Positions 361 to 28,531 of a stretch of 56,646 bases of DNA are shown here, in pieces. Origin of the DNA: a virus; IMG/VR virus record IMGVR_UViG_3300042934_000556, positions 1 to 56,646 of that record; one strand, given 5' to 3'. The translations under genes were made by a program, and so were the position numbers. The notes beneath the pieces are model-generated. The model saw only the letters and a list, made by a program, of their open reading frames with translations, was not told the DNA's origin and searched no databases. How positions within the stretch are numbered: the first letter of the stretch is position 1; every line of letters starts with the position of its first letter.

Positions 361-624
361 CTACGAGACGGACGCGAAGGGCTTCCAGTTCTCGGTCACT
401 CTGATGTGGAGGCCCGAAACGTTCTCGGTGATGATCTCCAGAATTGCGTCTTCGATGTCCGCATCCTGAAGTTCTTCTGGAAGTTCGTCGGACGTCCTGG
501 TCACCCGCGCTAGTAGGGCAAGGGAGTGGTGGCCCTGTTCCAGGTCATACTGGAGCCACTCATCCCAATGGGTGAAAGGGTTGTAAGGATTGTCGATGGT
601 GGTGAGCATGTGGTTCTCGCTCAT
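361..624 (-). CDS. Small conserved phage protein, function unknown
   Basis: This 87-residue protein is soluble and acidic, with no membrane segment. Its N-terminal part reads DNPYNPFTHWDEWLQYD, a pattern I recall from many phage proteins of unknown role (recollection, not a search). The start ATG overlaps the stop of the RNA polymerase-like gene by 4 bases, suggesting translational coupling. It is the last gene before the 330-base non-coding region. Confidence 0.75.
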   Translation of the reverse strand: MSENHMLTTIDNPYNPFTHWDEWLQYDLEQGHHSLALLARVTRTSDELPEELQDADIEDAILEIITENVSGLHIRVTENWKPFASVS

Positions 625-3404
625 TCGCCACCTCCACTCAGGCCAGCCTTGAGAGTGGACACCGGGACACCGAGCTGGTCGGCTACCTCGGCAAGGGTGT
701 ACTTGTCACCACGAAGAAGCAGCATGGCCCTGTTCTTGAGGGCAGCGCTCATGACTGGCTTCTCTCTTGGCGTGGCCAGTTCCTTGATCTTTTCTACATC
801 GGTGTTGTCGAGAATCTGCTTCAAGACGTTGTTGCTGACGGCGCCAGCCTGGATCGCTTCCCACTCACGTGGTTCGATCGTGATCTTGTCCTTGCCAGCC
901 TGAAGTCTCATGCGAGCCTCAGCGAGAGCCTTCGACTTGAGCTTCTTCTGCTCGGCTTCCTCCATCTCAGGGTGCGACTCAAGCTTTCGCTTGTAGATGG
1001 CGTTTGCTACGACCTGGGCCTGTCGTTCACGGGGGGCGTTCATGAGTGCCAGGGTCAGCTTGTCCTTGAGCATCTGGACTTCCTTGGCATACACCTTTGC
1101 CGCAGAGGGGGAGCGCTCGATACCCTTGGTCTTGACAAGCTCCTTGCGAGCATCGTTAGCCAGGGACTTCAACCTGTTCGAGTGATCAGCGTAGATCACC
1201 TCGATGGGCTTGCGCTTCTCCGAGACAAGGTCATGAGCGTCGTCCGTCTCAGCAAGCTTTGTGGTCTTGACCATCTTAGGCTTGCCGGGGACGTACTCCT
1301 TACCCGTTTCCACCCACACAAGCTTGCCTGTTTCAGGATCGATCGGACCGCCATCCTTGGCTTTCCGAAGTTCCCTATCGAGAACCCGCTTCTGAGAAGT
1401 GGCCCGAGAGATGATGGTTGAAGCACCACCATCGGCCTGACCAGCAGGCTTGGGCTGATACTTCGACACCAAGGCAGGGATACCGTTGTCGATCGCCGAT
1501 TGCTTGTAATTGAGCTTGTGCTTCTCGGCATCGATGATGACCATGGAATGTCGGACTGCGCGAGCAAGCTCGTTGTCCGTGGCCCCATGAATCGTCATGT
1601 CGGTGATGAGGTTGGAGATCTTCCCCATCTCGGTACCCTTAGCTTTGGGGTTGGCCTTCTCGCCTTCGGCGAACTCGACCTTCTTTGTCTTGGCGTTGTA
1701 CGTGCCTCCGCCCAGAACTCGCATACCATCGTAGCCAGGGTACGCCGACTGAGGATCGAATCCCTTGAGACCCTCGAGTGGCGGACGGGACTTGACCTTT
1801 CCGTGGTTGTTCGGAATGACCAGAACCGTATCACCGTCGAAGTCAGCACCCGACAAGCGCTCTGCCACAGAGTGATGGATACCTACTGCGTCAGGAGCAT
1901 TGCCGAGAAGCTTATTCGCCTGAGGGTGGCGGTTGTTCACAATGAGTTCGGGGATCTCGAAGAGACCTCCGTGCGGGAAGCGAACAAGCGCTACTCGGTC
2001 ACCGTTGTCCAGGGTGGGTGCGTAGATCTCTCGAGGACTCATCGAGTTGATCGGCAGTATGACCTTGGTCGCCTGACGAGGAAGGTGTGCAGCCTTCAGA
2101 TGGACAGCCGACGAATCTGTTGAATCAGCGAACTTCTCCAACAGATGTGCCTTTACGGCATCGTTGGTGAGACTCATGATGGTGTCGAACTCGCTCTTCT
2201 TGGTCTCGTACGTGATGTCGAGTTGGTCCTTGGCGAGCGTCGGCTTCTGCTTGGACAGCATCTGAGATGACAGGCTCTTAGACCATTCATCCCAGTTACC
2301 TTCCTTGTTCACGATGTTCATCGCGGACTCGACGATCTTGTTGCCGTCCTTGTCGCGCATCTCAGTGCCGTCAGGGTTCTTGCGGTAGATCTGGTCATCG
2401 ATGACGGCTCCGAACGGGTCGTCCTCCATCACCTTGCCAGTGTTCTTGTCCCGCTTCATCTCCTTCATGGCGTCGAGCTTGTTGCCCGTGTTCTTCTTGT
2501 TGGTGTTGAACACGAGGTCTACGCCAGGCGGCATGTCGTCGTTGTACATCGCCATACCTTTGAGGTAATGCGTGCCATCGACAGCGATGCGAACCTGTGC
2601 ATAGTTCGACTTTCCAAGCGATACGTCGGGGACCCCGCGACGAACGTAGATGACACCGTCGGCGTCGGTTCCGCCTTCTTCAGCGTAACGGACTTTGACC
2701 CTCTTGGAGTCGATCGAGATCGGAGGACGGATACCGTCGTAGGTGCGACCGCCATCCTTCGACTTGACGAGGATCTGCTGGATCTGATCCCGATTGTCGT
2801 TGACCTCTTTCCAAGGGACTTCAGGACCCGCCAACACCTTCAAGGTCGTGAACTTGCCCGTACCGAGCTGTTCCACCTTGATGTAGTGCATCTTGTAGCC
2901 CTCGTCCTCGAGGAGCTTACGAGCGGCCCTGAGCTTCTCCTTGCTGATGTTCAGGTGAAGCTCGACACCAGCGCCGACGTCGATGTACTTCTTCTTGGCA
3001 ACCTGGTCGCGGAGCATGTCCGCAGTCGACTCGAGGATACTGTTCTCTTCAGCGGCGCCCGGCCTGATGAGCGTCCGGAACGTGGATTCAGGGACACCCA
3101 TCTTCTTGGCTGCAGCGACATTGGAGAGGCCTCGCTCCTTGAGTTGGTTGGCTCGAGCGATGTCAGCGGCCTTTCGGGCTCGCTTGGCCATGGCGGTGGT
3201 GTCACGCAGTTGGGTGGTAGTCATACCGAACCCTTCCGCGATGTCCTTCTCCTTGAGCTCCTGTCGCTTCAGGTCTGCAACCATGGACTGGAAGGTACCT
3301 GCACGCTCGTAAGGCGTCTCACCGGAACCCCAGGGGTAGCGGCCCGACTTGCGTCGGATGCCGTAGTGAACGAGAGCATCACGCTCTTCTGCTTCGATGT
3401 TCAA
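621..3404 (-). CDS. Two-barrel RNA polymerase-like protein with N-terminal HYG tag
   Basis: 927 residues. Residues 519-527 read GADFDGDTV, matching the metal-binding DFDGD signature of the beta-prime/QDE-1/YonO double-psi barrel. Just before it (about 449-518) is a stretch resembling the rest of that barrel. Around 275-305, HYLKGMAMYNDD and following residues could be the lysine-bearing first barrel. Helix-turn-helix-like segments lie at about 52-66, 90-112 and 900-920. Residues 13-28 (HYGIRRKSGRYPWGSG) are a variant of the tag on the head-gene block. It starts with TTG overlapping the upstream TGA, with GGGAG before it. A YonO- or crAss-like single-chain RNA polymerase is the best guess; a structural protein with a degenerate barrel is the alternative. 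Confidence 0.6.
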   Translation of the reverse strand: MNIEAEERDALVHYGIRRKSGRYPWGSGETPYERAGTFQSMVADLKRQELKEKDIAEGFGMTTTQLRDTTAMAKRARKAADIARANQLKERGLSNVAAAKKMGVPESTFRTLIRPGAAEENSILESTADMLRDQVAKKKYIDVGAGVELHLNISKEKLRAARKLLEDEGYKMHYIKVEQLGTGKFTTLKVLAGPEVPWKEVNDNRDQIQQILVKSKDGGRTYDGIRPPISIDSKRVKVRYAEEGGTDADGVIYVRRGVPDVSLGKSNYAQVRIAVDGTHYLKGMAMYNDDMPPGVDLVFNTNKKNTGNKLDAMKEMKRDKNTGKVMEDDPFGAVIDDQIYRKNPDGTEMRDKDGNKIVESAMNIVNKEGNWDEWSKSLSSQMLSKQKPTLAKDQLDITYETKKSEFDTIMSLTNDAVKAHLLEKFADSTDSSAVHLKAAHLPRQATKVILPINSMSPREIYAPTLDNGDRVALVRFPHGGLFEIPELIVNNRHPQANKLLGNAPDAVGIHHSVAERLSGADFDGDTVLVIPNNHGKVKSRPPLEGLKGFDPQSAYPGYDGMRVLGGGTYNAKTKKVEFAEGEKANPKAKGTEMGKISNLITDMTIHGATDNELARAVRHSMVIIDAEKHKLNYKQSAIDNGIPALVSKYQPKPAGQADGGASTIISRATSQKRVLDRELRKAKDGGPIDPETGKLVWVETGKEYVPGKPKMVKTTKLAETDDAHDLVSEKRKPIEVIYADHSNRLKSLANDARKELVKTKGIERSPSAAKVYAKEVQMLKDKLTLALMNAPRERQAQVVANAIYKRKLESHPEMEEAEQKKLKSKALAEARMRLQAGKDKITIEPREWEAIQAGAVSNNVLKQILDNTDVEKIKELATPREKPVMSAALKNRAMLLLRGDKYTLAEVADQLGVPVSTLKAGLSGGGE

Positions 3405-18772: not shown

Positions 18773-19699
18773 TCAGACCTGCTTCATCAGGCTGAGGATC
18801 TCGCCGTCGACGTTGAAGTCGAGAAGGATCGCCTGCTTGTCGCCGTTGATCCACTTCTTGCCCTCGTACACGCCCTCGTTCCAGACGCCGAAGTCGATGA
18901 CGCCGTCGCCACGGCCGTCCTTGGGGTTGATGACCCAGCCGACGACCTGACCGGCAGCGGTACGCTCGAAGCCGAGCATCTCGTAGACCTGGTTCAGCGT
19001 GACGAAGCCGTCGACGCGGAGAAGGGTGTTCGCCATGTTCTGGACGTTCTCGATGCGCGTCTGGTTCTGGTGCGGGAACTCCGACCAGTCATCGTGGTCC
19101 GAGTCGAACAGACGGGCGTAGACCGACCCGGCGTCGATCTCCTTCTTGATGGCCTCCTGGTCGAGACCCTTCAAGATCGTGGTGACCGGGCCGGTCTCGG
19201 TCTCCTCGACGACCTCCCTCTCGGCGGTGCCCCAGCGGTACTCGAGGTCCTTCTCGGTGCCCTGATCCTCGACGACACGCTTGCGGTAGTCCTGGAGCGT
19301 CTTGGTGGCGATGCCGAGAGAGGCGGTGAGAGCGGTGTTGCGACGCGTCAGGATGACATGAGCGCCGGTGAGAGCGGTGAGGGTGCCGAGTCCAATGGCG
19401 ACAGACGGGGCGTAGAGTTTGGCGACGCGGATGGCCACCTGCAGCTTTGCGCCGATCTTTGCCTTCTTCTTGACCTCCTCGCCCTCGTTCTCGGTCTTCT
19501 CGTCGACCTTGTTGAGGAGCTTGTTGCCCTCTTCGAGGACGTCGCTCAGCTTGAGGGTCGCTCGACAGGCGAGGACGACCGTTGTGGTGAATCCGACGGC
19601 GCCGAGGCCGAGCAGCAGGACGGGCGAATGGGTCTTGACAGTGAGGGTCTGCCGGGCCATGGCTCCGGTGACACGGTTCCTCATGGACTTGAGGCTCAT
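18773..19699 (-). CDS. DUF6353-like membrane protein
   Basis: 308 residues. Two hydrophobic segments (about 26-46 and 95-120) flank a charged region (NKVDEKTENEGEEVKKKAK), as in DUF6353 proteins. The C-terminal 100 residues contain NTLLRVDGFVTLNQVYEMLGFER and GDGVIDFGVWNEGV, shared with the genes at 20306-20776 and, more weakly, 23316-24095. Probably at the host membrane; role unknown. Start overlaps the upstream stop. Confidence 0.8.
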   Translation of the reverse strand: MSLKSMRNRVTGAMARQTLTVKTHSPVLLLGLGAVGFTTTVVLACRATLKLSDVLEEGNKLLNKVDEKTENEGEEVKKKAKIGAKLQVAIRVAKLYAPSVAIGLGTLTALTGAHVILTRRNTALTASLGIATKTLQDYRKRVVEDQGTEKDLEYRWGTAEREVVEETETGPVTTILKGLDQEAIKKEIDAGSVYARLFDSDHDDWSEFPHQNQTRIENVQNMANTLLRVDGFVTLNQVYEMLGFERTAAGQVVGWVINPKDGRGDGVIDFGVWNEGVYEGKKWINGDKQAILLDFNVDGEILSLMKQV

Positions 19700-20151: not shown

Positions 20152-20384
20152 CGTCGGTACCTCCTGTAGGGTCCGGGCTCGCTGTTCGTCTCGCCGTAGA
20201 TCTTCTCGTCGACGAAGGACAGCACGCTCTCGACGCGCCGAGCGACGAACTTGGCGACCATGTCGCTGCTCTTGTCGCCTACCTTCTGACGGATCGACTT
20301 CGGTACTACCCTTGCGGTGGTTCTGACGATGGTGCGACCGAACAACGTTCCCACCACGACACCGGCGGCGAATCGCATTCCCAT
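20148..20384 (-). CDS. 78-residue glycine-rich small membrane protein
   Basis: ATG at 20384 with GAGGGGAAA upstream. The N-terminus MGMRFAAGVVVGTLFGRTIV is a hydrophobic, glycine-bearing helix; the rest is basic and helical. It overlaps the end of the 20306-20776 gene by 79 bases and the next gene by 4. Function unknown. Confidence 0.6.
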   Translation of the reverse strand: MGMRFAAGVVVGTLFGRTIVRTTARVVPKSIRQKVGDKSSDMVAKFVARRVESVLSFVDEKIYGETNSEPGPYRRYRR

Positions 20385-20776
20385 TGGAGTTTCCCCTCCT
20401 CTTTCAACTTGCGTATTCGGTACGTCAGGGGGTCGTCGGATCGGTCGACGTTGAAATATAGAGGCTTGAAGTCGACTTTGCCGCGCGTCCAGTCCCGGCC
20501 CTCGGCGAATCCATGCGCCCATACACCGAAGTCGATGTACCCGTCGCCTTCATCCGAGTCTCGAATCCACCCGATCATCTCGCCCCATCGGTCTTTCTCG
20601 AAACCGAGGAGCGTCAGTACCTCGTTCAGCGAAACGTGACCACGGGTTCGGAGAATATGATTCGCCTTCTCCTGCGCGTCCTGTACGAACACCGCGTTCA
20701 ACCAGCGGTCCCTGCTGTTCCAGTTCGGATTGGTCCTGTCGAAAACTCTTTTGTGCCGAGAGGCACGGGACTTCAT
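20306..20776 (-). CDS. Stand-alone copy of the DUF6353-associated C-terminal domain
   Basis: 156 residues. HILRTRGHVSLNEVLTLLGFEKDRWGEMIGWI and GDGYIDFGVWAHGFAEGRDW closely follow the C-terminal domain of the 18773-19699 protein, but here without the membrane part. The 3' 79 bases are also read in another frame by the next gene. Unknown function; the domain is probably a soluble module used by several membrane proteins of this phage. Confidence 0.75.
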   Translation of the reverse strand: MKSRASRHKRVFDRTNPNWNSRDRWLNAVFVQDAQEKANHILRTRGHVSLNEVLTLLGFEKDRWGEMIGWIRDSDEGDGYIDFGVWAHGFAEGRDWTRGKVDFKPLYFNVDRSDDPLTYRIRKLKEEGKLQWECDSPPVSWWERCSVAPSSEPPQG

Positions 20777-20932: not shown

Positions 20933-21640
20933 CTAGCGTCCGGTGTCGATCGGCTCGGGCTCCGGGAAGGTGATCCCGTAACCGCCGTCGGACAGAGGCA
21001 CCGGGCGAGCGCGGTTGAGGTTGTACCAACCCCACTCCTCGTCGGTGCTCTTGGGGACCACCCCGGGGATGAGGTTGTAGTAGTCGCCGACGGTCGCGTG
21101 CCGGTACTTCTCGATCAGCCCCTCGAGGGAGAGGAGGATGTTGACGGCGTCCTGCCGGGACTCGAACGCGAACTGCTGAACGGAGTTCGACCGGCGAACG
21201 ACCTTCGGCTGATAGCTCCCGTTCTGAGAAACCGGGACGACGTTGTTCATCGTCCGGATGACCGGAGCGTTGGACGAGAAGCGGTTGTAGGGGACGTGGT
21301 TGCCCCCCATGGGCGGACTGGTGATACTGGGGCGCTCGCCGTGGTTCAACTTCTCCTCGAGCGCCTGCTGGAAGCCGGTCGTCACCTGACCGAACGCCGC
21401 GACGATCATCCCCCGGATCGTGGGCATCAGCATGTCCTTGACGAACCAGTCGCGGAGGTTCTCACCCTCGTCGACGAACATCTCGCGCATCTGACGTCCG
21501 ATGGACTTCTTGCGGGGCGTGACCTTGCCCTTGACGTCGACCGGTTCTATCTTCTTGGGTGCCTCGGAGTTTTCCGTGGTACCCGAGTCCTCCTTGGAGG
21601 CCTTGATGTGTGACAAGTGGCTGTTACCAGGGAAATCCAT
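20933..21640 (-). CDS. Conserved phage protein of unknown function
   Basis: 235 residues. It begins MDFPGNSHL and has a KVTPRKKSIGRQMREMF segment, a mid-region amphipathic helix (MLMPTIRGMIVAAFGQ) and the ending YGITFPEPEPID. I recall this set of motifs from phage proteins labelled only hypothetical. It starts just downstream of terminator 21651-21680 with no copy of the cassette promoter, so it needs read-through or another promoter. Confidence 0.75.
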   Translation of the reverse strand: MDFPGNSHLSHIKASKEDSGTTENSEAPKKIEPVDVKGKVTPRKKSIGRQMREMFVDEGENLRDWFVKDMLMPTIRGMIVAAFGQVTTGFQQALEEKLNHGERPSITSPPMGGNHVPYNRFSSNAPVIRTMNNVVPVSQNGSYQPKVVRRSNSVQQFAFESRQDAVNILLSLEGLIEKYRHATVGDYYNLIPGVVPKSTDEEWGWYNLNRARPVPLSDGGYGITFPEPEPIDTGR

Positions 21641-21650
21641 GGCTACCTTT

Positions 21651-21680
21651 CGAAAAACCCAAACCCCTTGCGGGGTTGGG
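21651..21680 (-). terminator. Cassette-type intrinsic terminator
   Basis: Minus-strand RNA reads AACCCC-GCAA-GGGGTT followed by TGGGTTTTTCG. It lies just after the 21690-21842 gene and matches the terminators that follow the small genes between 24.6 and 27.8 kb. Confidence 0.8.
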
Positions 21681-21689
21681 AAATGAGTG

Positions 21690-21842
21690 TTACGCGGTCA
21701 GTTCCTTCTTGGGCTCTTCGTCAGGGCCAAAGTACTCGTCAGCCTGCTTGTTTATCACCTTTTCGATCTTCCCGAGAAGAACGGCGGCGAGTCCAGCAGC
21801 GAGGAATTTGACGATATCCTTCTTATTCTGGGGCTTGAGCAT
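21690..21842 (-). CDS. 50-residue membrane peptide, cassette gene
   Basis: ATG at 21842 with GATTGGA upstream. One membrane helix (about 11-23, FLAAGLAAVLLGK) follows a short basic N-terminus; the tail is acidic. It has its own 35-bp promoter (21861-21895) and terminator, the outlying member of the array at 24.6-28.5 kb. Confidence 0.7.
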   Translation of the reverse strand: MLKPQNKKDIVKFLAAGLAAVLLGKIEKVINKQADEYFGPDEEPKKELTA

Positions 21843-21860
21843 GAGAGGGCGTCCAATCGT

Positions 21861-21895
21861 TAGGGGTCTCATTATAGGCCTTGTGAAATATGCGA
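21861..21895 (-). promoter_or_regulatory. Cassette promoter 1
   Basis: Minus strand: TCGCA, four free bases, TCACAAGGCC, TATAAT (21876 to 21871), GAGACCCCTA. The TATAAT lies 28 bases from the start of the 50-residue gene. Differs from the consensus by TCACA for TTACA. Confidence 0.85.
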
Positions 21896-21908
21896 GGAGC
21901 CTAGGGTG

Positions 21909-22049
21909 TCACTTTCTCGGTCCCGTGTTGAAGATTCGACATACGTGGAGTGAGACCTCCCACCGCGAACAACGCTTCTTTCTTGCGCACTCTTCGTGGG
22001 TCTTCTTGCATCGCGGGCAGCAATTCGACGGAATGGATTCCTTCTGCAT
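21909..22049 (-). CDS. 46-residue cysteine-rich protein
   Basis: ATG at 22049 with GGAG seven bases upstream. Six cysteines (CCPRCKKTHEEC, then C and C) and a very basic composition suggest a small zinc-binding, nucleic-acid-contacting peptide. The stretch between it and 22223 (about 170 bases) holds several overlapping short frames with poor ribosome sites; I cannot support a gene there. Confidence 0.5.
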   Translation of the reverse strand: MQKESIPSNCCPRCKKTHEECARKKRCSRWEVSLHVCRIFNTGPRK

Positions 22050-22222
22050 TATGTCGCTCCGATACCGAGTACGAATATGGCGCGATGAGCGGGGCGCATG
22101 TTCCTCACGTTGGGGGAGTCATGAGCTACGGCTGTCGTTTGGTCGACCAGCATCCGGAATATGGTTTCGGGAGACCCCTCCCACCGTCGCCATTGCTGGT
22201 CGCCCCGTTCATCATTGTTGCG

Positions 22223-22747
22223 TCAGGCCGCGTTGCCCGTCTTTCGCTTCATGGCGATCATGGTGTGATGCTTCGACCACTGCATCGGGTTCTTGCCTGC
22301 GACCTTCATGAAGTCCTCGTCGGACATGGCGAGGAGCTCGTCGTCGTTGTACTGACGCTCCTGGGTTTCGCTCTCGGCGATCTTCTTCTGGATGTCGGCG
22401 GGCATGATCGAGATGAAGAACGAGAACCCGGCGTCGGGCATCTCGACCAAATCGGCGAAGAACGCCTCGTAGGCACCACACCCCTTAAAGCGTCGTATGA
22501 CACCCGCGTCCTTGATGATGAGGTCGTCCTCGCGGATGCCGACCGAGCGGAACAGCATCTCCTGCCAGAGGTCCAGCATCCGACGGCTGTCCTCGTTCTC
22601 GACGATCTCCTTGAGGTACGTGCCGGGGTCCTTCATGTGGGCCAGTTCCATCTCGGCCATGTCGGTCTTGCCGAGGGAGAAGTACCACTCGGACTGGACG
22701 TCGGTTCCGTCGGGGGTCTGGTGGCTGATGATCTTGCGGACGGGCAT
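22223..22747 (-). CDS. Conserved phage protein resembling a tail assembly chaperone
   Basis: 174 residues from the ATG at 22747. The pattern (EWYFSLGKTDMAEMELAH, LWQEMLFRSVGIREDDLIIKDAGVIRRF, AYEAFFADLVEMPDAGFSFFISIMP) recalls proteins often described as tail chaperones in other phages. It sits outside the tail module, however, and a different chaperone candidate lies at 41737-42279. Treat the role as unproven. Confidence 0.6.
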   Translation of the reverse strand: MPVRKIISHQTPDGTDVQSEWYFSLGKTDMAEMELAHMKDPGTYLKEIVENEDSRRMLDLWQEMLFRSVGIREDDLIIKDAGVIRRFKGCGAYEAFFADLVEMPDAGFSFFISIMPADIQKKIAESETQERQYNDDELLAMSDEDFMKVAGKNPMQWSKHHTMIAMKRKTGNAA

Positions 22748-22782
22748 TGCTTTCTCGTTTCTCTTCGATTTAACAAGCGGAA

Positions 22783-22820
22783 GGGGCGGCACGCAGAATA
22801 TGACTTCCACGTACCGCCCC
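22783..22820 (-). terminator. Intrinsic terminator after 22840-23214
   Basis: GGGGCGGUACG pairs with CGUGCCGCCCC as minus-strand RNA (11 pairs with one U-G wobble, 16-base loop), followed by UUCCGCUUGUUAAAU. The weak U-run makes partial termination likely. Confidence 0.6.
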
Positions 22821-22839
22821 GACCTTCAACGGGTGTTGA

Positions 22840-23214
22840 TCAGGCGTTCTCGGCGAGCACCTGCTCGTTCTCGCCGGTGATGACCTGGAGGTCGACCTCG
22901 TCCTCGCTGAGGGTCTCCTCGTCGGCCTGCTTCGCGGCGAACTTGGCGAAGGCCACGGCGGCCAGGGCCACGGAGACGGCGACTCCGGCGACGACCTTCT
23001 TGTTCTCCTTGAGCTTCTCGGTCACGGAGACCAGGCGCTCCTTGAAGGACTTCTTGCCGCCCTCGATGACCTCCAGCTCCGGGGCCTCGGTGGTCTCCTC
23101 GATGACCTCCAGCTCGGAGGCCTTCTCGCTCTGCGCCGGGACGACCAGGTTCTCCTCGGCGGCCTGGGCGGCGACGGACTCGGCGGTGACCTTGGTGTTC
23201 TTGTTGTTCGACAT
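22840..23214 (-). CDS. Membrane-anchored acidic protein
   Basis: 124 residues from the ATG at 23214 (GGAG upstream). A Glu-rich N-terminal half with the near-repeat ELEVIEETTEAPELEVIEGG is followed by a Lys-rich stretch and one membrane helix (about 74-92, VVAGVAVSVALAAVAFAKFA), then an acidic tail ending ENA. It shares the anchor-plus-acidic-tail design of the cassette proteins. Confidence 0.7.
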   Translation of the reverse strand: MSNNKNTKVTAESVAAQAAEENLVVPAQSEKASELEVIEETTEAPELEVIEGGKKSFKERLVSVTEKLKENKKVVAGVAVSVALAAVAFAKFAAKQADEETLSEDEVDLQVITGENEQVLAENA

Positions 23215-23228
23215 GCTCTTGGGCTCCT

Positions 23229-23315
23229 TCAGTTTCCGAAAATATCGTTCGGGTGGCTTGTGTGGTACTCGTACGCGGCGATCCAATATGGATTACCGCG
23301 AGGGCCCCAATCTCT
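23229..23315 (-). other. In-frame open extension beyond the UGA of the 23316-24095 gene
   Basis: Directly after the TGA at 23318-23316 the same frame stays open for 28 codons without an ATG, GTG or TTG start, and reads like protein (RDWGPRGNPYWIAAYEYH...), ending at TGA 23229. Either the UGA is sometimes read through or the gene was recently shortened by a nonsense change. Confidence 0.4.
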
Positions 23316-24095
23316 TCAATAGAGCTGGGCGTACCTGTGATTCGGTCGGTTGACGAAGTCGATGGCGAGACACGGGACGTTGTTCTTCGTGAGCGCCGAC
23401 GTGTAGTTGAGTTCGAGCTTGTCGTTGGAGTCCCAGCCGAGGTCGTCGGAGGCGCCGATGGGCGTCAGACCCAGAAGGTGGTAGAACTCCGTCAACGACA
23501 GGTGTGTGCTGTTGATCAGCTCGTGGTTGAAGTCGTTCACGGCCTTACGAATCGTCTCCATGTCACTGACGAAATATCGATCCGACCACTTGTCCCAACA
23601 TAGGACGCTTCCCTGCTGAGCGGCGAGAGCGAGTACCGTCTGGCCCGGAGGGTTCGCTGTGATGCGGTCCTGGACGATCTCGTCGCGGATCGCCTGCTCC
23701 TTGTTCTTACCGACCTTCTTCAGCGTCTTCTCGCGGTACTCCTTGAAGCTCTTCTCGGCGAACGCGTAGGCCGATGCCATGGCAGCCGCCCGGCGCTCAC
23801 TCACGCGGTTGGCGCAGATGGTCGCCGTGACGGTCATGGCCAGGCAGGTCGCTGCCGGGATGTACAGCTTCCAGGTGAGCTCGGCCTTTCCCTTGAACGT
23901 GTTGAAGTGTTCGGCTTCCTCGGTGGTGGAGATCTCCACTTCCGCTTCTCCGAGAACCTTGGCGGCCTGGAAAGCTGCCTTGGCGGCCAAATATACGGAT
24001 GTGACAGCGCCAGAGACGCTTAGTGCGGTCAGAATCGCCGGAGAGTTGTTTGCGGCGACCTTACCTGCACGCTGGAACAGCGCGCTGAAGTCCAT
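23316..24095 (-). CDS. DUF6353-like membrane protein
   Basis: 259 residues. NNSPAILTALSVSGAVTSVYLAAKAAFQAAKVL (about 16-48) and LYIPAATCLAMTVTATICANRV (about 77-98) are the paired hydrophobic segments typical of DUF6353. The charged helix between and after them is also typical. The C-terminal part (HLSLTEFYHLLGLTPIG) weakly resembles the module in 18773-19699 and 20306-20776. AGGAG before the ATG. Confidence 0.8.
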   Translation of the reverse strand: MDFSALFQRAGKVAANNSPAILTALSVSGAVTSVYLAAKAAFQAAKVLGEAEVEISTTEEAEHFNTFKGKAELTWKLYIPAATCLAMTVTATICANRVSERRAAAMASAYAFAEKSFKEYREKTLKKVGKNKEQAIRDEIVQDRITANPPGQTVLALAAQQGSVLCWDKWSDRYFVSDMETIRKAVNDFNHELINSTHLSLTEFYHLLGLTPIGASDDLGWDSNDKLELNYTSALTKNNVPCLAIDFVNRPNHRYAQLY

Positions 24096-24186
24096 GATTG
24101 AAGCTCCTGTCGTGTCGCCGTGTTGGCGATTCTGATGCGTGGTTTGGTTCTACTTCTCGTTCTTGGGGAGAGGGGTGATCAGATTC

Positions 24187-24504
24187 TTACGCATTGTCTC
24201 TCTCCTTCTTCGCTTCCTCGAAGCGCTCGTTCGCCTCGTCGGAGAACTCGTTCGAACCCGTGTTGTACTGGGCGTAGACGTCATCGTCACTGATGCGAAC
24301 GTGGCGGTAGAGCATCGACTCACCAGCCTCGAGTTCCTCCATCGTCGATGGGGGAACCGGAATTGTCGACCAGCCGTCGCCGTAGTGGTCTGCCTCGAAC
24401 TTTTCGAGTTCGTTCTTATACTTCACCGCGAGAGACGTGGCGACGACCGTCCCGACGACTCCGGCGATGGTCGGAATATGGCGCTTGAGCTGTCGCAGCC
24501 TCAT
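24187..24504 (-). CDS. Membrane-anchored protein, start uncertain
   Basis: 105 residues from the ATG at 24504 (GAGGT upstream); a GTG at 24561 would add 19 residues but lacks a ribosome site. One membrane helix (TIAGVVGTVVATSLAVKY) near the N-terminus and an acidic C-terminal half. A 14-codon frame after it (MRKNLITPLPKNEK) is noted but not supported. No cassette promoter directly upstream. Confidence 0.6.
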   Translation of the reverse strand: MRLRQLKRHIPTIAGVVGTVVATSLAVKYKNELEKFEADHYGDGWSTIPVPPSTMEELEAGESMLYRHVRISDDDVYAQYNTGSNEFSDEANERFEEAKKERDNA

Positions 24505-24585
24505 CTTCAGAACCTCGCGCCGGAGCTGGTTCTTCGTCTTACCCGTCACTTCACCGAACACAGGGGGCAGCCCTTCTGAATATGG

Positions 24586-24613
24586 CGAAACCCAAACCCC
24601 ATGCGCGGGTGCG
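24586..24613 (-). terminator. Cassette-type terminator, imperfect stem
   Basis: Follows the 24634-24828 gene. The conserved GGGGTTTGGGTTTCG 3' part is intact, but the 5' arm (ACCCGCGCAT) pairs over only four or five bases. Confidence 0.6.
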
Positions 24614-24633
24614 CTGAGGCGTGGGTCTTGAGG

Positions 24634-24828
24634 TCAGTTCTCGTCTTCGGGGGTGTAGAACTCGTTGTAGAGGCCCTTCTCCTTGAGGAACTCGTCGTGC
24701 TGCTTCAGACCGATCTTCAGCAGTACCGCCGCGCCGGTGGCGGCAACGGTGGTGACTGCGAGGATCTTGGTCTTGTTCTCGACGATCTTGTCCTTGGCGG
24801 AGGTAAGGGCCTTCTTGGCGGCGTTCAT
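24634..24828 (-). CDS. 64-residue membrane peptide, cassette gene
   Basis: ATG at 24828 with GATTGGA upstream. Basic N-terminus (AAKKALTSAKDKIVENKTK), one membrane helix (about 21-37, ILAVTTVAATGAAVLLK) and an acidic tail ending DEN. Own promoter and terminator. Likely inserted in the host membrane with the acidic tail outside or in the cytoplasm; role unknown. Confidence 0.75.
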   Translation of the reverse strand: MNAAKKALTSAKDKIVENKTKILAVTTVAATGAAVLLKIGLKQHDEFLKEKGLYNEFYTPEDEN

Positions 24829-24852
24829 AACACGTCCAATCTGGTTAGAGGG

Positions 24853-24887
24853 TAGGGGTCTCATTATAGGACGTGTAATTCTTGCGA
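24853..24887 (-). promoter_or_regulatory. Cassette promoter 2
   Basis: Minus strand: TCGCA, AGAA, TTACACGTCC, TATAAT (24868 to 24863), GAGACCCCTA. The distance from TCGCA to TATAAT is 14 bases, as in all ten copies. The start codon lies 34 bases beyond the TATAAT. Confidence 0.9.
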
Positions 24888-24900
24888 GGGTAGGTTAACC

Positions 24901-25098
24901 CTACGAACGCCTCGACTTTCCGTACGTGCTGCTCTTGATGCGACGGTTGACGTCCTTGGCGTAGGCCCGGCGGCCCTGGTAAGCGCCGATCGCGTTGATC
25001 ACCTTTCCCGCCGCCGCGAGCGCCACGGAAATGACTCCGATGACGGCTACCGGGTTGTTGTTGAACTCTTCCTTGAGCCGCTTCAGACCTTCGTTCAT
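24901..25098 (-). CDS. 65-residue small membrane protein
   Basis: ATG at 25098 overlaps the previous stop (ATGA) with AGGGGAG upstream. One hydrophobic segment (about 17-37, VAVIGVISVALAAAGKVINAI) and a basic tail. It is the last gene of a three-gene run (25381-24901) with no cassette promoter of its own. Confidence 0.65.
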   Translation of the reverse strand: MNEGLKRLKEEFNNNPVAVIGVISVALAAAGKVINAIGAYQGRRAYAKDVNRRIKSSTYGKSRRS

Positions 25099-25289
25099 GC
25101 TTCACTCCCCTTGGAATATGACTTGACCGACTTCGCCAGTTGCCGCATGGCGATTCCGGTGGCGACCTTGAGACCCAGTACGACGACCAGGTTGATAACG
25201 ACACGTCGGAACGGAGGGTCCCAGAAGGGCTCGTTCTCGATAACTTCTTCCTCTTTAGGAAGTAGCGTCACCAGCTTTGGTGGTTCCAT
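25095..25289 (-). CDS. 64-residue small membrane protein
   Basis: ATG at 25289 overlaps the stop of the 30-residue gene (TAATG). An acidic N-terminus (LLPKEEEVIENEPFWDP) precedes a membrane helix (about 30-46, VVINLVVVLGLKVATGIA). Function unknown. Confidence 0.65.
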   Translation of the reverse strand: MEPPKLVTLLPKEEEVIENEPFWDPPFRRVVINLVVVLGLKVATGIAMRQLAKSVKSYSKGSEA

Positions 25290-25381
25290 TACTTGTACCA
25301 CCAATCCCAGATCCATCCGGCCAGCTTTCCCGCGCAACACCCGATCGCCAAACAGGATATGATCGTAACTAGAATGTCCAC
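25289..25381 (-). CDS. 30-residue membrane peptide
   Basis: GTG start at 25381 with AGGAGGGAC upstream. It begins (M)DILVTIISCLAIGCCAG and ends in the aromatic cluster WIWDWWYK, a typical membrane-interface anchor. Stop overlaps the next ATG. It starts just after terminator 25399-25429, without the 35-bp promoter. Confidence 0.6.
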   Translation of the reverse strand: MDILVTIISCLAIGCCAGKLAGWIWDWWYK

Positions 25382-25398
25382 TAACTGTCCCTCCTAGG

Positions 25399-25429
25399 CG
25401 AAACCCAAACCCCTTGTGGGGGTTCGGGC
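25399..25429 (-). terminator. Cassette-type intrinsic terminator
   Basis: Minus-strand AACCCCC-ACAA-GGGGTT, then TGGGTTTCG, just after the 25436-25624 gene. Confidence 0.8.
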
Positions 25430-25435
25430 TTGAGG

Positions 25436-25624
25436 TCAGTTCTCGTTGGTGGTCTTCTTGGTCTTCTTGGCCTCCTTCTTCTCCAGGTATTTCGCGTAGG
25501 CGAGGCCGACCGCGAGGAATCCGGCAGTGGTGGCAGCCGACATAGCGGCGCCCACGGCGAATGCCTTGGCGATCTCCTTGCCGAAATTGATGTCCTGGGA
25601 CTCGGTGGAGGTGTTGTTGTCCAT
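25436..25624 (-). CDS. 62-residue membrane peptide, cassette gene
   Basis: ATG at 25624 with GATTGGA upstream. Polar N-terminus, one Ala/Gly-rich helix (about 19-44, KAFAVGAAMSAATTAGFLAV) and a Lys-rich tail ending TNEN. Complete with its own promoter and terminator. Confidence 0.75.
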   Translation of the reverse strand: MDNNTSTESQDINFGKEIAKAFAVGAAMSAATTAGFLAVGLAYAKYLEKKEAKKTKKTTNEN

Positions 25625-25646
25625 GAGAGGTTTCCAATCTAAAGGT

Positions 25647-25681
25647 TACGGGTCTCATTATAGAGCATGTAATTCTTGCGA
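25647..25681 (-). promoter_or_regulatory. Cassette promoter 3
   Basis: Minus strand: TCGCA, AGAA, TTACATGCTC, TATAAT (25662 to 25657), GAGACCCGTA. TATAAT is 32 bases from the ATG of the 62-residue gene. Confidence 0.9.
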
Positions 25682-25719
25682 GTTTTGCCCAAAATACCCG
25701 CTCGGGAAATTTTGGAAAA

Positions 25720-25750
25720 CGAAACCCAAACCCCTTGTGGGGGTTCAGGC
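25720..25750 (-). terminator. Cassette-type intrinsic terminator
   Basis: AACCCCC-ACAA-GGGGTT then TGGGTTTCG on the minus strand, after the 25758-26048 gene. Confidence 0.8.
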
Positions 25751-25757
25751 TTTGAGG

Positions 25758-26048
25758 TCAGTTCTCGATGTTGGTGTTGTTCATGATGGAAAGGTAGTAG
25801 ACGTCGTCCATCTCGCTCTGCTGGACGATCAGGTCCTCGCGCTCCAGGAGCGCCTTCTTGTCGTCGCCGGTCACCTCCGGAAGGGGCTCGAACTCGACCT
25901 CCACCTCGGGCGCCTGGGCGGCGTTCTTGATGGAGTTGAGCACGAGCACCGTGGAGGCGGCGGCTGCGGTGAAGGCGATCACGCTGGGGGCGTAGGTCTT
26001 GATCTTCTGCTTGAGGGTGGCGAACTTCTCGTTCTTCTTCTCGTTCAT
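25758..26048 (-). CDS. 96-residue membrane protein, cassette gene
   Basis: ATG at 26048 with GATTGGA upstream. Lys-rich N-terminus, membrane helix (about 21-40, SVIAFTAAAASTVLVLNSI), then a long acidic soluble part (EVEVEFEPLPEVTGDD...) ending NIEN. The largest acidic tail among the cassette proteins. Unknown function. Confidence 0.75.
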   Translation of the reverse strand: MNEKKNEKFATLKQKIKTYAPSVIAFTAAAASTVLVLNSIKNAAQAPEVEVEFEPLPEVTGDDKKALLEREDLIVQQSEMDDVYYLSIMNNTNIEN

Positions 26049-26066
26049 GGTAAGTCCAATCTAGAG

Positions 26067-26101
26067 TAGGGGTCTCATTATAGGGCATGTAATTCTTGCG
26101 A
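26067..26101 (-). promoter_or_regulatory. Cassette promoter 4
   Basis: Minus strand: TCGCA, AGAA, TTACATGCCC, TATAAT (26082 to 26077), GAGACCCCTA; 28 bases from TATAAT to the ATG. Confidence 0.9.
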
Positions 26102-26109
26102 GGACATGT

Positions 26110-26138
26110 CGAAACCCAAACCCCTTGTGGGGTCGGGT
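26110..26138 (-). terminator. Cassette-type intrinsic terminator
   Basis: ACCCC-ACAA-GGGGT with TTGGGTTTCG after it on the minus strand, just past the 26145-26390 gene. Confidence 0.8.
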
Positions 26139-26144
26139 CTGAGG

Positions 26145-26390
26145 TCAATCTTGGTCGGCGCTCTTGGTTTTCTTGACGGCGATCTGACTCACGGTGTCGA
26201 TGGCCTTGACGGCGGCGTAGACTCCGATCGCGGCGAGAGTGACATGCTTCACCAACGTCTTTCCGTGGTCGGCGATGGCCTTGACGGTTTCGGGGTGAAG
26301 AATATGGGTCTCTTCGGGAGCGGAGTCGTCAGCCTTCTTGTTCTTGGGCTTGTCGACGAACGTGAGCTGAACGGCCTTCTTCTTGAACAT
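26145..26390 (-). CDS. 81-residue cassette protein with one hydrophobic segment
   Basis: ATG at 26390 with GATTGGA upstream. Here the order is reversed relative to the other cassette proteins: a polar N-terminal half (FVDKPKNKKADDSAPEET) and a C-terminal hydrophobic stretch (about 50-69, VKHVTLAAIGVYAAVKAIDT), then a Lys-rich end. Function unknown. Confidence 0.75.
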   Translation of the reverse strand: MFKKKAVQLTFVDKPKNKKADDSAPEETHILHPETVKAIADHGKTLVKHVTLAAIGVYAAVKAIDTVSQIAVKKTKSADQD

Positions 26391-26406
26391 AGCGGGGTCC
26401 AATCGG

Positions 26407-26441
26407 TAGGGGTCTCATTATAGGCCGTGTAATATGTGCGA
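26407..26441 (-). promoter_or_regulatory. Cassette promoter 5
   Basis: Minus strand: TCGCA, CATA, TTACACGGCC, TATAAT (26422 to 26417), GAGACCCCTA; 26 bases to the ATG. It starts 8 bases after the stop of the 26449-26679 gene, with no terminator between. Confidence 0.9.
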
Positions 26442-26448
26442 AGGCCTG

Positions 26449-26679
26449 TCAGAACAGCTCGTCGTCGACGATCTGCTTCCAGAAAATGACCGACTCTACC
26501 CGACGTTTCGGGTCGTCCTCGTACATCCGCATCTGATCTTCGAATGCCTTGTGGTACGTACGGATGCGAGCGTTCTTGTCGAAGCTTCGCTGGTACCTCC
26601 GCTGAGCAAGAACTGTCCCTATTGCCGATGACGCTACGGCTCCAACCACAACGAGTGCGAAGAAGAGCTTTCCGTTCAT
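26449..26679 (-). CDS. 76-residue membrane protein
   Basis: ATG at 26679 with GGGGAGGG upstream, a different ribosome site from the cassette genes. N-terminal membrane helix (about 4-22, LFFALVVVGAVASSAIGTVL) then a basic helical region. It follows terminator 26714-26744 and has no cassette promoter, so it depends on read-through or an unrecognised promoter. Confidence 0.65.
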   Translation of the reverse strand: MNGKLFFALVVVGAVASSAIGTVLAQRRYQRSFDKNARIRTYHKAFEDQMRMYEDDPKRRVESVIFWKQIVDDELF

Positions 26680-26713
26680 GGTTCCCTCCCCGAAATATGA
26701 TGACCCCTGGCGG

Positions 26714-26744
26714 CGAAACCCAAACCCCATGTAGGGGTCCGGGC
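26714..26744 (-). terminator. Cassette-type intrinsic terminator
   Basis: GACCCC-TACA-TGGGGTT-TGGGTTTCG on the minus strand, after the 26751-26969 gene. Confidence 0.75.
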
Positions 26745-26750
26745 TTGAGA

Positions 26751-26969
26751 TTAGTTCTCGATCTTGTCCAATGTCAGCTTAAGCTTGAAGCCTTCGCGCT
26801 TCACATTGAAGTGGTAGAGGCCGTCTTCAACGCTTTCGTTAATCCCACCCTGATTCTGCAGTACGCTATAAAGCCACTGGTTGCGAGGGGTGAGGTTTCC
26901 GATAGCGTCCCAACGACCGTTACCAACGATAATGGTGAGGGGCGTGAGGTCCTTCTTCTTGCGGAACAT
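26751..26969 (-). CDS. 72-residue soluble cassette protein
   Basis: ATG at 26969 with GATTGGA upstream. Unlike its neighbours it lacks a membrane helix; it looks like a small beta-sheet protein (LTIIVGNGRWDAIG, YHFNVKREGFKLKLTLD). It ends in IEN, like several other cassette proteins. Function unknown. Confidence 0.75.
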   Translation of the reverse strand: MFRKKKDLTPLTIIVGNGRWDAIGNLTPRNQWLYSVLQNQGGINESVEDGLYHFNVKREGFKLKLTLDKIEN

Positions 26970-26983
26970 AGTGATCCAATCGG

Positions 26984-27018
26984 TAGGGGTCTCACTATAG
27001 GACGTGTAATCCTTGCGA
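26984..27018 (-). promoter_or_regulatory. Cassette promoter 6
   Basis: Minus strand: TCGCA, AGGA, TTACACGTCC, TATAGT (26999 to 26994), GAGACCCCTA; 24 bases to the ATG. TATAGT replaces TATAAT. Confidence 0.9.
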
Positions 27019-27056
27019 GACCTCTAGAGAATCACTCTCATTTTGACCCCGAGCGG

Positions 27057-27085
27057 CGAAACCCAAACCCCATGCGGGGTAGGGT
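27057..27085 (-). terminator. Cassette-type intrinsic terminator
   Basis: ACCCC-GCAT-GGGGT with TTGGGTTTCG after it on the minus strand, past the 27093-27293 gene. Confidence 0.8.
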
Positions 27086-27092
27086 CTTGAGC

Positions 27093-27293
27093 TCACTCGT
27101 CAAACGTACCGTTGTCGACGAAGTAGTCCACGGCCACTGCGATCATCTCTTCGACACTCGTCACCTGTCCGGCCTTGAGCTTTTCGCTGAGGTGGGCGAT
27201 GTAGCCATTCACCATAGCGAACTGCTCGAGGTCTAGGTAACGGAGTCCGATGAGCTGAATCGAAGTGATCTCGAGGATCTGCTTGTGCAGCAT
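27093..27293 (-). CDS. 66-residue soluble cassette protein
   Basis: ATG at 27293 with GGAAGG upstream. All-helical and acidic (LRYLDLEQFAMVNGYIAHLSE, VEEMIAVAVDYFVDNGTFDE), no membrane helix. The ORF could extend upstream only through the promoter, so this start is preferred. Unknown function. Confidence 0.7.
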   Translation of the reverse strand: MLHKQILEITSIQLIGLRYLDLEQFAMVNGYIAHLSEKLKAGQVTSVEEMIAVAVDYFVDNGTFDE

Positions 27294-27308
27294 TGGTAAG
27301 CCTTCCGT

Positions 27309-27343
27309 TAAGGGTCTCATTATAGGCCTTGTAAAGCTTGCGA
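27309..27343 (-). promoter_or_regulatory. Cassette promoter 7
   Basis: Minus strand: TCGCA, AGCT, TTACAAGGCC, TATAAT (27324 to 27319), GAGACCCTTA; 25 bases to the ATG. Confidence 0.9.
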
Positions 27344-27357
27344 GACCCCTAACGGAG

Positions 27358-27388
27358 TAAACCCAAACCCCTTGCGGGGGTCTGGACT
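27358..27388 (-). terminator. Cassette-type intrinsic terminator
   Basis: ACCCCC-GCAA-GGGGTTTGGGTTTA on the minus strand, after the 27395-27700 gene. Confidence 0.8.
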
Positions 27389-27394
27389 TTGAGG

Positions 27395-27700
27395 TCAGTT
27401 CTCGTCGGGGACGGGGGTCATGATGAACATTGGTTCGTCGCGGCCGTTGTAGAAAGTGACGGAGTGACCGGTCTCGCGGACGTGCTTGGCAGCATCGTTG
27501 ACTTCTCGGATCTTCGCATCGGCGGCCTCCACGTCCTTGAGCGTCTCAGCGATGTCCTCTCGGACTTCGTCGATGCGCTTGATGACGTGGAGACAGAACG
27601 CTGCGGTGGCGAGGCAGCCAGCGACGATGGCAGCATCTACTGCGATCTGGTTCTCCTGGTACTTCTTCTTGGCCTTCTCGAACTTCTGCTTGATGTTCAT
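27395..27700 (-). CDS. 101-residue membrane protein, cassette gene
   Basis: ATG at 27700 with AAAGGA upstream. Lys-rich N-terminus, membrane helix (about 20-40, VDAAIVAGCLATAAFCLHVI), coiled-coil segment (RIDEVREDIAETLKDVEAADAKIREVNDA) and a C-terminus ending PDEN. Complete cassette with promoter and terminator. Confidence 0.75.
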   Translation of the reverse strand: MNIKQKFEKAKKKYQENQIAVDAAIVAGCLATAAFCLHVIKRIDEVREDIAETLKDVEAADAKIREVNDAAKHVRETGHSVTFYNGRDEPMFIMTPVPDEN

Positions 27701-27719
27701 GAGCGGCTGTTCCTTTCGT

Positions 27720-27754
27720 TAAGGGTCTCACTATAGGGCGTGTAAAATATGCGA
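27720..27754 (-). promoter_or_regulatory. Cassette promoter 8
   Basis: Minus strand: TCGCA, TATT, TTACACGCCC, TATAGT (27735 to 27730), GAGACCCTTA; 29 bases to the ATG. Confidence 0.9.
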
Positions 27755-27761
27755 CCCTCGA

Positions 27762-27791
27762 CGAAACCCAAACCCCATGTGGGGTCCGGGC
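27762..27791 (-). terminator. Cassette-type intrinsic terminator
   Basis: GACCCC-ACAT-GGGGTT-TGGGTTTCG on the minus strand, after the 27798-28016 gene. Confidence 0.8.
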
Positions 27792-27797
27792 TGAAAC

Positions 27798-28016
27798 TCA
27801 GTCCTTCTTGGTCTCAGATATGCTCTCGCACTGCGCGACGGTCTGGTCGATGGTCTCGAAGGCTCTGTCCCACCCAGCCGTGAACCCGTCGATGAACTGC
27901 ATACGGCCGAGGACTTCGAGGTCTTCAGCCTGATGACGGTTCTTCTTCCGGTTCAGGATATAGGGGGTGCAGATTCCTGCGATGACACCGAGCAGAGCAG
28001 CGATAGCGATGGTCAT
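27798..28016 (-). CDS. 72-residue membrane protein, cassette gene
   Basis: ATG at 28016 with GAAAGG upstream. Signal-anchor-like N-terminal helix (MTIAIAALLGVIAGICTPYI), then a basic patch (NRKKNRHQ) and an acidic helical domain. The positive patch after the helix suggests the C-terminus stays in the cytoplasm. Confidence 0.75.
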   Translation of the reverse strand: MTIAIAALLGVIAGICTPYILNRKKNRHQAEDLEVLGRMQFIDGFTAGWDRAFETIDQTVAQCESISETKKD

Positions 28017-28035
28017 AGCTAACAGCCTTTCTAGG

Positions 28036-28070
28036 TAAGGGTCTCATTATAGGCCTTGTAATATGTGCGA
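28036..28070 (-). promoter_or_regulatory. Cassette promoter 9
   Basis: Minus strand: TCGCA, CATA, TTACAAGGCC, TATAAT (28051 to 28046), GAGACCCTTA; 29 bases to the ATG. Confidence 0.9.
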
Positions 28071-28105
28071 TACCGGCGTAAAGGGTCCCAGAGAGAGCTA
28101 TTAGG

Positions 28106-28151
28106 CAAAAAACAGACGGCGTGTAAACCTTGTTAGGGTCTACACGCCGTC
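28106..28151 (-). terminator. Strong intrinsic terminator, unrelated to the cassette type
   Basis: GACGGCGTGTA (28151 to 28141) pairs perfectly with TACACGCCGTC (28125 to 28115), with an inner ACC/GGT extension, followed by TGTTTTTTG. It ends the transcript of the 28195-28482 gene and is the best classical terminator in the window. Confidence 0.9.
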
Positions 28152-28194
28152 CATCCGGTCGTCCTGGTTGGGACGCTTTCTCAGTTGATGAAGG

Positions 28195-28482
28195 TCACTT
28201 CTTGACGAGGCTGAATGCCTTCGTGGCGATCACGTGGGTGTGCTCGTAGCTGATGACGATGAGGATGCCAGCGAGAGACGACAGCGCAGCGACTACCTGG
28301 TCCTTGCTCACCTTCTGCTTGGAATCGACTTCCTGCAGCTTGTAGAGCTTGGCCAACTGGTCGCTTACGCGGTTGTACTCATCGCTGTCCTCCGGCGTGT
28401 TAGACAGCTTCTTGAACAGTCGCGCGATCTCCTTCTGGAGGTCGTTCGGCTCCGACGTCTTGAACTTCAGCATCTTGGGCAA
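28195..28482 (-). CDS. 95-residue conserved phage protein, cassette gene
   Basis: TTG start at 28482 placed by AAGGA at good spacing; the ATG three codons later is too far from it. A soluble helical N-terminal part (LQKEIARLFKKLSNTPEDSDEYNRVSDQLAKLYKLQ) precedes a hydrophobic C-terminal segment (VVAALSSLAGILIVISYEHTHV). I recall this combination from other phages without a known function. Confidence 0.75.
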   Translation of the reverse strand: MPKMLKFKTSEPNDLQKEIARLFKKLSNTPEDSDEYNRVSDQLAKLYKLQEVDSKQKVSKDQVVAALSSLAGILIVISYEHTHVIATKAFSLVKK

Positions 28483-28496
28483 AGCAGTTCCTTCCG

Positions 28497-28531
28497 TAGG
28501 GGTCTCACTATAGGGCGTGTAAAATATGCGA
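28497..28531 (-). promoter_or_regulatory. Cassette promoter 10
   Basis: Minus strand: TCGCA, TATT, TTACACGCCC, TATAGT (28512 to 28507), GAGACCCCTA; 24 bases to the TTG start. First copy of the array in the direction of transcription, directly after the late module. Confidence 0.9.

Follow-up and report, generated by a model that had tools for sequence, protein, structure and literature searches.

T7-type promoters are compact and rigid, with a TATA box beside the start and a conserved initial sequence that contains GAGA. Phage RNA polymerases (RNAPs) of the two-barrel family include gp64 (non-virion) and gp96 (virion) of P23-45, which have their own promoter motifs upstream of many starts, described as GC-rich for gp64 and AT-rich for gp96 (PMC10770324), and YonO of Bacillus phage SPbeta, the best-studied member of this kind in phages, which serves one late operon from one start; according to its authors, the sequence of its promoter had not been determined (Forrest et al. 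2017, PMC5467207). Repeated intergenic sequences were noted earlier in Gordonia phages of cluster DJ, as a 50-bp motif of Vardy read as sigma-70 (PMC9671010) and as repeats of Pherobrine and Burley (PMC9753669). Here we analysed the 56,646 nucleotides (nt) of IMG/VR virus record IMGVR_UViG_3300042934_000556 (hereafter the window), in which a 35-bp element occurs in ten copies ahead of small genes. We estimate at about 0.8 the probability that the phage's own RNAP, a protein of 927 amino acids (aa), uses each copy as a promoter, probably without a host sigma factor.

Like YonO, which transcribes phage genes specifically, the 927-aa protein would be a phage-encoded single-chain two-barrel RNAP of ~100 kDa; unlike YonO, it would use many promoters, located apart from the structural genes. 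In SPbeta, a search of the late-promoter region did not find the motif, the YonO start having been placed on the SPbc2 record without certainty. As for gp64 and gp96, a two-barrel phage RNAP is found together with conserved motifs, and gp64 is among its best fold matches, but the terminal helix-turn-helix (HTH) regions of the 927-aa protein lie outside the gp64-matched residues 228-760. The element recalls T7-type promoters by its compact rigid layout, its TATA box and the GAGA of its putative initial sequence, while it differs from them in the two-barrel family of the polymerase, in its greater length and in a TCGCA box located one turn further upstream. The cluster DJ repeats share an array behind the tail genes, genes for small membrane proteins, TATAAT and terminators, and Pherobrine and Runhaar (98.5% identical to Vardy) carry the element at 94% identity; the corresponding papers deal with one cluster only and draw no link to an RNAP or to other phage groups (PMC9671010, PMC9753669). 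Searches of the openly licensed literature on cluster BI, 1706 and two-barrel RNAPs uncovered no publication that connects a repeat of this kind with the RNAP. The link between element and RNAP appears to be new, whereas the repeat itself is known from Gordonia cluster DJ.

A rigid ten-copy element

The window derives from a Rimavirus-like Streptomyces phage, its array region being ~84% identical to Hoshi, Rima and DrGrey. All ten copies of the element lie on the minus strand (Table 1) and follow the pattern TCGCA-N4-TTACA-N-G-N-CC-TATART-GAGACCC-N-TA. A search of the whole record that allowed up to 3 mismatches recovered these ten copies and no others, and 100 dinucleotide-preserving shuffles yielded none. 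Twenty-five of the 35 columns are invariant across the ten copies, conservation peaks over TATART-GAGACCC, and no conserved bases were detected upstream of TCGCA in either the window copies or the aligned IMG/VR copies. Deviations consist of TCACA in place of TCGCA (copy at 21895), CTC (copy at 25681) and TATAGT in three copies, the remaining hexamers being TATAAT. A constant 14 nt separates TCGCA from the hexamer, and a start codon lies 24-34 nt downstream of every hexamer, a range that assumes ATG 26390 and ATG 25624 for two copies with a possible longer TTG reading. The initial annotation had claimed a rigid ten-copy element with these very exceptions, this unchanging spacing, this distance to a minus-strand start codon (here measured from the hexamer) and conservation past the expected start, where GAGACCC proves to be invariant; each of these claims is borne out.

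The starts of TCGCA, TTACA and TATART are 9 and 10 bp apart, i.e., about one helical turn each, so the three boxes would lie on one face of the DNA. Inspection of the ten-copy alignment revealed no apparent dyad in the conserved bases.

Sigma-70 tests and placement of the start

A TTGACA hexamer, reported as missing at the usual -35 distance in the initial annotation, is indeed lacking: at 15-19 bp, 171 distinct copies of the element from relatives gave a mean best match of 2.38/6, as against 2.76/6 in shuffles. A sigma-70 scan of the window called none of the ten elements, all of which have a TATAAT or TATAGT hexamer. Because the -35 match falls below that of shuffles and the scan called no copy, the element is, as judged from its sequence, not a plain sigma-70 promoter. 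The invariant GAGACCC is also unusual for a sigma-70 discriminator. No sigma-70 region 2 (PF04542) was detected in the window by a search that was positive in 10 control genomes; a search for T7-family RNAP (PF00940) gave no match in the window and matched in no control genome either.

Seven transfer RNA (tRNA) genes were found directly behind an element, in ReqiPoco6, P078, 1706 and four Clostridia prophages. Only 2-4 nt separate the TATART-like hexamer from the tRNA in these prophages, which would put the start of transcription just a few nt past TATART. The sigma-70 start spacing of 5-8 nt beyond the -10 would not fit there, an indirect argument since it comes from relatives of the phage and not from the window, and with the tRNA this close a sigma-70 start 6-8 nt downstream would cut the acceptor stem. 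A start exactly at TATART+1, derived from RNA pairing, was considered and dropped, as it relied on G-U and T-run pairs; the first paired base came right after the hexamer in 8/10 structured RNAs, and the outcome was mixed when a different window was used for the pairing. The Clostridia prophage units consist of an element, 2-4 nt, a tRNA-like gene with an unclear anticodon and a T-run, and may represent minimal promoter-tRNA-terminator units.

The predicted 927-aa RNA polymerase

The candidate reader of the element is encoded at the window's far end. The protein matches phrog_4291 at E=0, a family labelled 'RNA-dependent RNA polymerase', and contains the catalytic motif SGADFDGDTV, of which DFDGD is invariant in 58 homologs. 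An AlphaFold model built with 58 homologs (pLDDT 77.5, pTM 0.57) was retained, while a single-sequence model with a pLDDT of 40 was discarded. Fold matches cover residues about 227-760 and include QDE-1 (Z 17.1, 382 residues, 4.4 Å), plant RDR2 (Z 15-17) and the phage RNAPs P74-26 gp62 (Z 13.6, 337 residues, 5.0 Å) and P23-45 gp64 (Z 13.0, 362 residues, 4.8 Å). A sequence search of the PDB returned only HTH-type or chance matches. HTH matches are located near both ends of the protein; the C-terminal one resembles sigma-70 region 4 and is kept in homologs from P078, oengus, JoyLin, Count and Qui. According to the modelled fold, the 927-aa protein is a single-chain two-double-psi-barrel RNAP, whose activity would be that of its family. 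SEA-PHAGES records mostly name it 'helix-turn-helix DNA-binding domain protein', an annotation that masks its likely function, and a few name it 'RNA-dependent RNA polymerase'.

Distribution of the element and of the polymerase

The initial annotation proposed a motif search of this genome and its relatives, which returned only the ten copies in the window and matches in 216 of the 50,697 records of the INPHARED phage set: 95 from Arthrobacter, 55 from Gordonia, 54 from Streptomyces, 4 from Rhodococcus and few others. Gordonia phage Petito matches the query copy at 24887 over all 35 bases. A scan of IMG/VR with the core returned 100 stretches, in which TCGCA, although outside the search pattern, shows 95-100% conservation at a constant distance. 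Diverged copies are present in Lactococcus phage 1706 (about a dozen, TTTTACA-N5-TATAGT with YCRCA upstream), P078 (about ten), Microbacterium phage Count (more than ten) and Faecalibacterium phage oengus (eleven copies of type ACGCGAAAAATACAGCCTCCTTTATGGA, with the same layout in other letters); those of P078 and oengus were located by direct pattern and repeat searches, their upstream boxes differing from the generic motif. Nine genomes carry 8-33 sense copies each and no antisense copy. Phages of Bacillota, with their low GC content, and of Actinomycetota, with their high GC content, have the core TTACA-N5-TATART in common.

The element co-occurs with the RNAP in phages and prophages of two phyla, Actinomycetota and Bacillota. 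A tblastn search with the RNAP matched 250 phage records, with counts for Arthrobacter, Gordonia, Streptomyces and Rhodococcus equal to those of the element when compared by genus and not record by record. The 34 records in excess belong to Lactococcus, Faecalibacterium, Microbacterium, Curtobacterium and uncultured phages, and those examined (1706, P078, oengus and Count) all possess diverged elements. Among 37 element-bearing metagenomic contigs of at least 30 kb, 29 encode a convincing RNAP match; the remaining eight, most of which visibly end near the DNA polymerase gene, are without the neighbouring Cas4 gene too, as fragments would be. Conversely, the core with at most 1 mismatch was found in 26 of 32 RNAP contigs, on a single strand in each and far above a reversed-pattern control.

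A forward test was carried out on 15 whole RNAP-bearing bacterial genomes (~61 Mb) with a pattern fixed beforehand from phages. It gave 12 matches in 5 genomes, as opposed to 3 for the reversed control, and all 12 lie on the contig and strand of the RNAP, 14-27 kb upstream of it, the identity of the contigs being confirmed by equal lengths and by overlaps. From these positions, the order of array, replication genes and RNAP is preserved in the Clostridia prophages. Refined copy counts in the five genomes are 10, 4, 10, 11 and 13, with no antisense copy.

Proposed mechanism and alternative explanations

We propose that TCGCA, TTACA and TATART are contacted by one protein on one face of the DNA: the fused HTH regions of the RNAP would contact the upstream boxes, and TATART would melt. 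Transcription would start a few bases past TATART, with GAGACCC corresponding roughly to the initial transcribed sequence rather than to a sigma-70 discriminator. Each promoter would drive one small gene, or a tRNA in relatives, and most units would be closed by their own terminator hairpin. Observed here are the elements themselves, their strand bias, their position ahead of tRNA genes and their co-occurrence with the RNAP, as well as the family, motif and predicted fold of the latter; that this RNAP binds the element, at which base transcription begins and that host factors are dispensable are inferred. The first expression of the RNAP would have to come from elsewhere, either from the host RNAP or from a particle-borne RNAP, because its own gene lacks an element. 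The initial annotation had envisaged a promoter for a dedicated phage polymerase, or one combined with an operator; the encoded RNAP, its co-occurrence with the element and the failure of sigma-70 speak for the former, while the operator part found no support, with no dyad apparent and no immunity repressor reported in relatives.

Several observations weigh against this proposal. No element is found at the RNAP gene or at the replication genes of the window, which need another start. In a profile comparison with hhalign, with YonO represented by a single sequence, the catalytic regions of the RNAP and YonO did not align, and no similarity was detected beyond 19 columns outside the active site. 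No exact pattern match was obtained in 10 of the 15 Clostridia-type genomes of the forward test, which drift explains only in part. DNA polymerase, helicase and Cas4 are about as conserved as the RNAP, as are at least two proteins of no assigned function (20306-20776 and 20933-21640), and since these phages share a backbone, the co-occurrence could be due to vertical descent alone, but the geometry at the tRNA genes, the layout that stays fixed while the sequence drifts and the missing -35 speak for the polymerase. Lastly, TATAAT is the sigma-70 -10 consensus as well.

This last point leads to host sigma-70/sigma-A promoters, perhaps assisted by a phage activator bound to TCGCA/TTACA in replacement of the -35. 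The candidate activators could be the conserved proteins encoded at 20933-21640 (phrog_4079) or 20306-20776, whose spread alongside the element roughly equals that of the RNAP; moreover, TATAAT is a perfect -10 and was taken as such in the Vardy announcement (PMC9671010). Yet the element lacks a -35, GAGACCC is invariant where a discriminator would lie, the tRNA begins 2-4 nt past the hexamer in four prophages and phages of both the low-GC Bacillota and the high-GC Actinomycetota share one core. We therefore consider this explanation unlikely.

Phages of cluster A/CA have stoperators, repeated intergenic sites with a single orientation relative to transcription (PMC13313380), and the element might similarly be an operator or stoperator for a phage repressor without being itself a start site. 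However, a start codon or a tRNA gene stands just downstream of the element every time, the conserved bases contain no dyad and neither an immunity repressor nor an integrase is reported for Vardy, Pherobrine or Count, which makes this explanation very improbable. Weaker still is an element that works at the RNA level, in a leader or as a signal for translation start such as the start-associated sequences known from cluster K mycobacteriophages, a reading which would fit the fixed short distance to start codons and the purine-rich stretch resembling a ribosome-binding site into which relatives' copies run, but which is next to negligible as seven copies precede untranslated tRNA genes, making a translational role unlikely.

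As for the promoter reading itself, it may extend to a virion-borne polymerase. The homologs from 1706 (38% identity) and ReqiPoco6 were labelled 'structural protein' in their original records, and the N-terminus of the RNAP, ALVHYGIRRKSGRYPWGSG, resembles a tag, ELVHYGVKGMKWGVRK, repeated on proteins of the head region (48.3-51.9 kb). This common tag is possibly a packaging or ejection signal, and together with the 'structural protein' labels it hints at an RNAP brought in with the particle. The location of the array in the middle of the genome, and not at its end, counts against this. A self-sufficient pair, in which an RNAP with sigma-like HTH regions is packaged into the virion via its N-terminal HYG-type tag, is injected into the cell and then transcribes the array genes independently of the host polymerase, and which is kept in phages of Actinomycetota and Bacillota, seems to us a tentative idea held at less than even odds. 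If true, it would give this RNAP branch a defined promoter code.

Array genes and neighbouring features

The genes behind the elements are short, about 50-100 aa, and a simple hydropathy test predicted a membrane segment in about half of the ten, one of the ten scores coming from an over-long gene reading. Nine hairpins of the form CCCC-N4-GGGGTTTGGGTTT lie between the small genes on the minus strand, and none was found on the plus strand. Two paralogous DUF6353 / phrog_2152 proteins are encoded on the minus strand, one inside the array (23316-24095) and one just beyond it (18773-19699), and a tail assembly chaperone-like protein (Phage_TAC_17; 22223-22765, minus strand) is encoded within the small-gene array, away from the tail genes.

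In Arthrobacter phage Qui (MN183282, 113.7 kb), the array is enlarged to more than 20 small genes (37.6-44.7 kb of the record), many of which code for membrane proteins; almost every gene has an element of its own, and the part searched contains 33 copies. Some elements of relatives (e.g., 33734-33987 of the joined Qui sequence) have no obvious open reading frame (ORF) or tRNA behind them, which suggests small RNA genes. In one relative, T-run hairpins start directly after the element and ahead of the gene at two sites, and are possible attenuators or tiny RNAs.

Table 1. Coordinates of the elements and associated features in the window.
Feature	Position	Strand	Remark
35-bp element (candidate promoter)	28497..28531	-	for ORF 28195-28482 (TTG start)
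35-bp element	28036..28070	-	for ORF 27798-28016
35-bp element	27720..27754	-	for ORF 27395-27700
35-bp element	27309..27343	-	for ORF 27093-27293
35-bp element	26984..27018	-	for ORF 26751-26969
35-bp element	26407..26441	-	for ORF 26145-26390
35-bp element	26067..26101	-	for ORF 25758-26048
35-bp element	25647..25681	-	for ORF 25436-25624
35-bp element	24853..24887	-	for ORF 24634-24828
35-bp element	21861..21895	-	for ORF 21690-21842; final copy ahead of replication module
927-aa single-chain two-barrel RNAP (phrog_4291), as modelled	621..3404	-	DFDGD at residues 521-525; HTH near both ends
Nine terminator-like hairpins CCCC-N4-GGGGTTTGGGTTT after small genes	21655..27785	-	termination predicted
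GGGG starts of the hairpins	27776, 27371, 27071, 26728, 26124, 25734, 25413, 24600, 21667	-	
Tag HYGVKGMKWGVRK on five head-region proteins (one twice)	48299, 49143, 49971, 50321, 50870, 51940	-	
Related tag HYGIRRKSGRYPWGSG at RNAP start	3344-3368	-	

Implications

With a defined 25-35-bp candidate in culturable laboratory phages (Rima, 1706 and Gordonia cluster DJ), the way in which a minimal relative of the cellular enzyme locates and opens promoters in the absence of sigma becomes directly testable. The proposed pairing might provide high-GC hosts with an orthogonal tool for transcription. It would also correct the widespread 'helix-turn-helix protein' annotation in some 200 actinobacteriophage genomes and would bring the regulation of about 250 phage records under one scheme.

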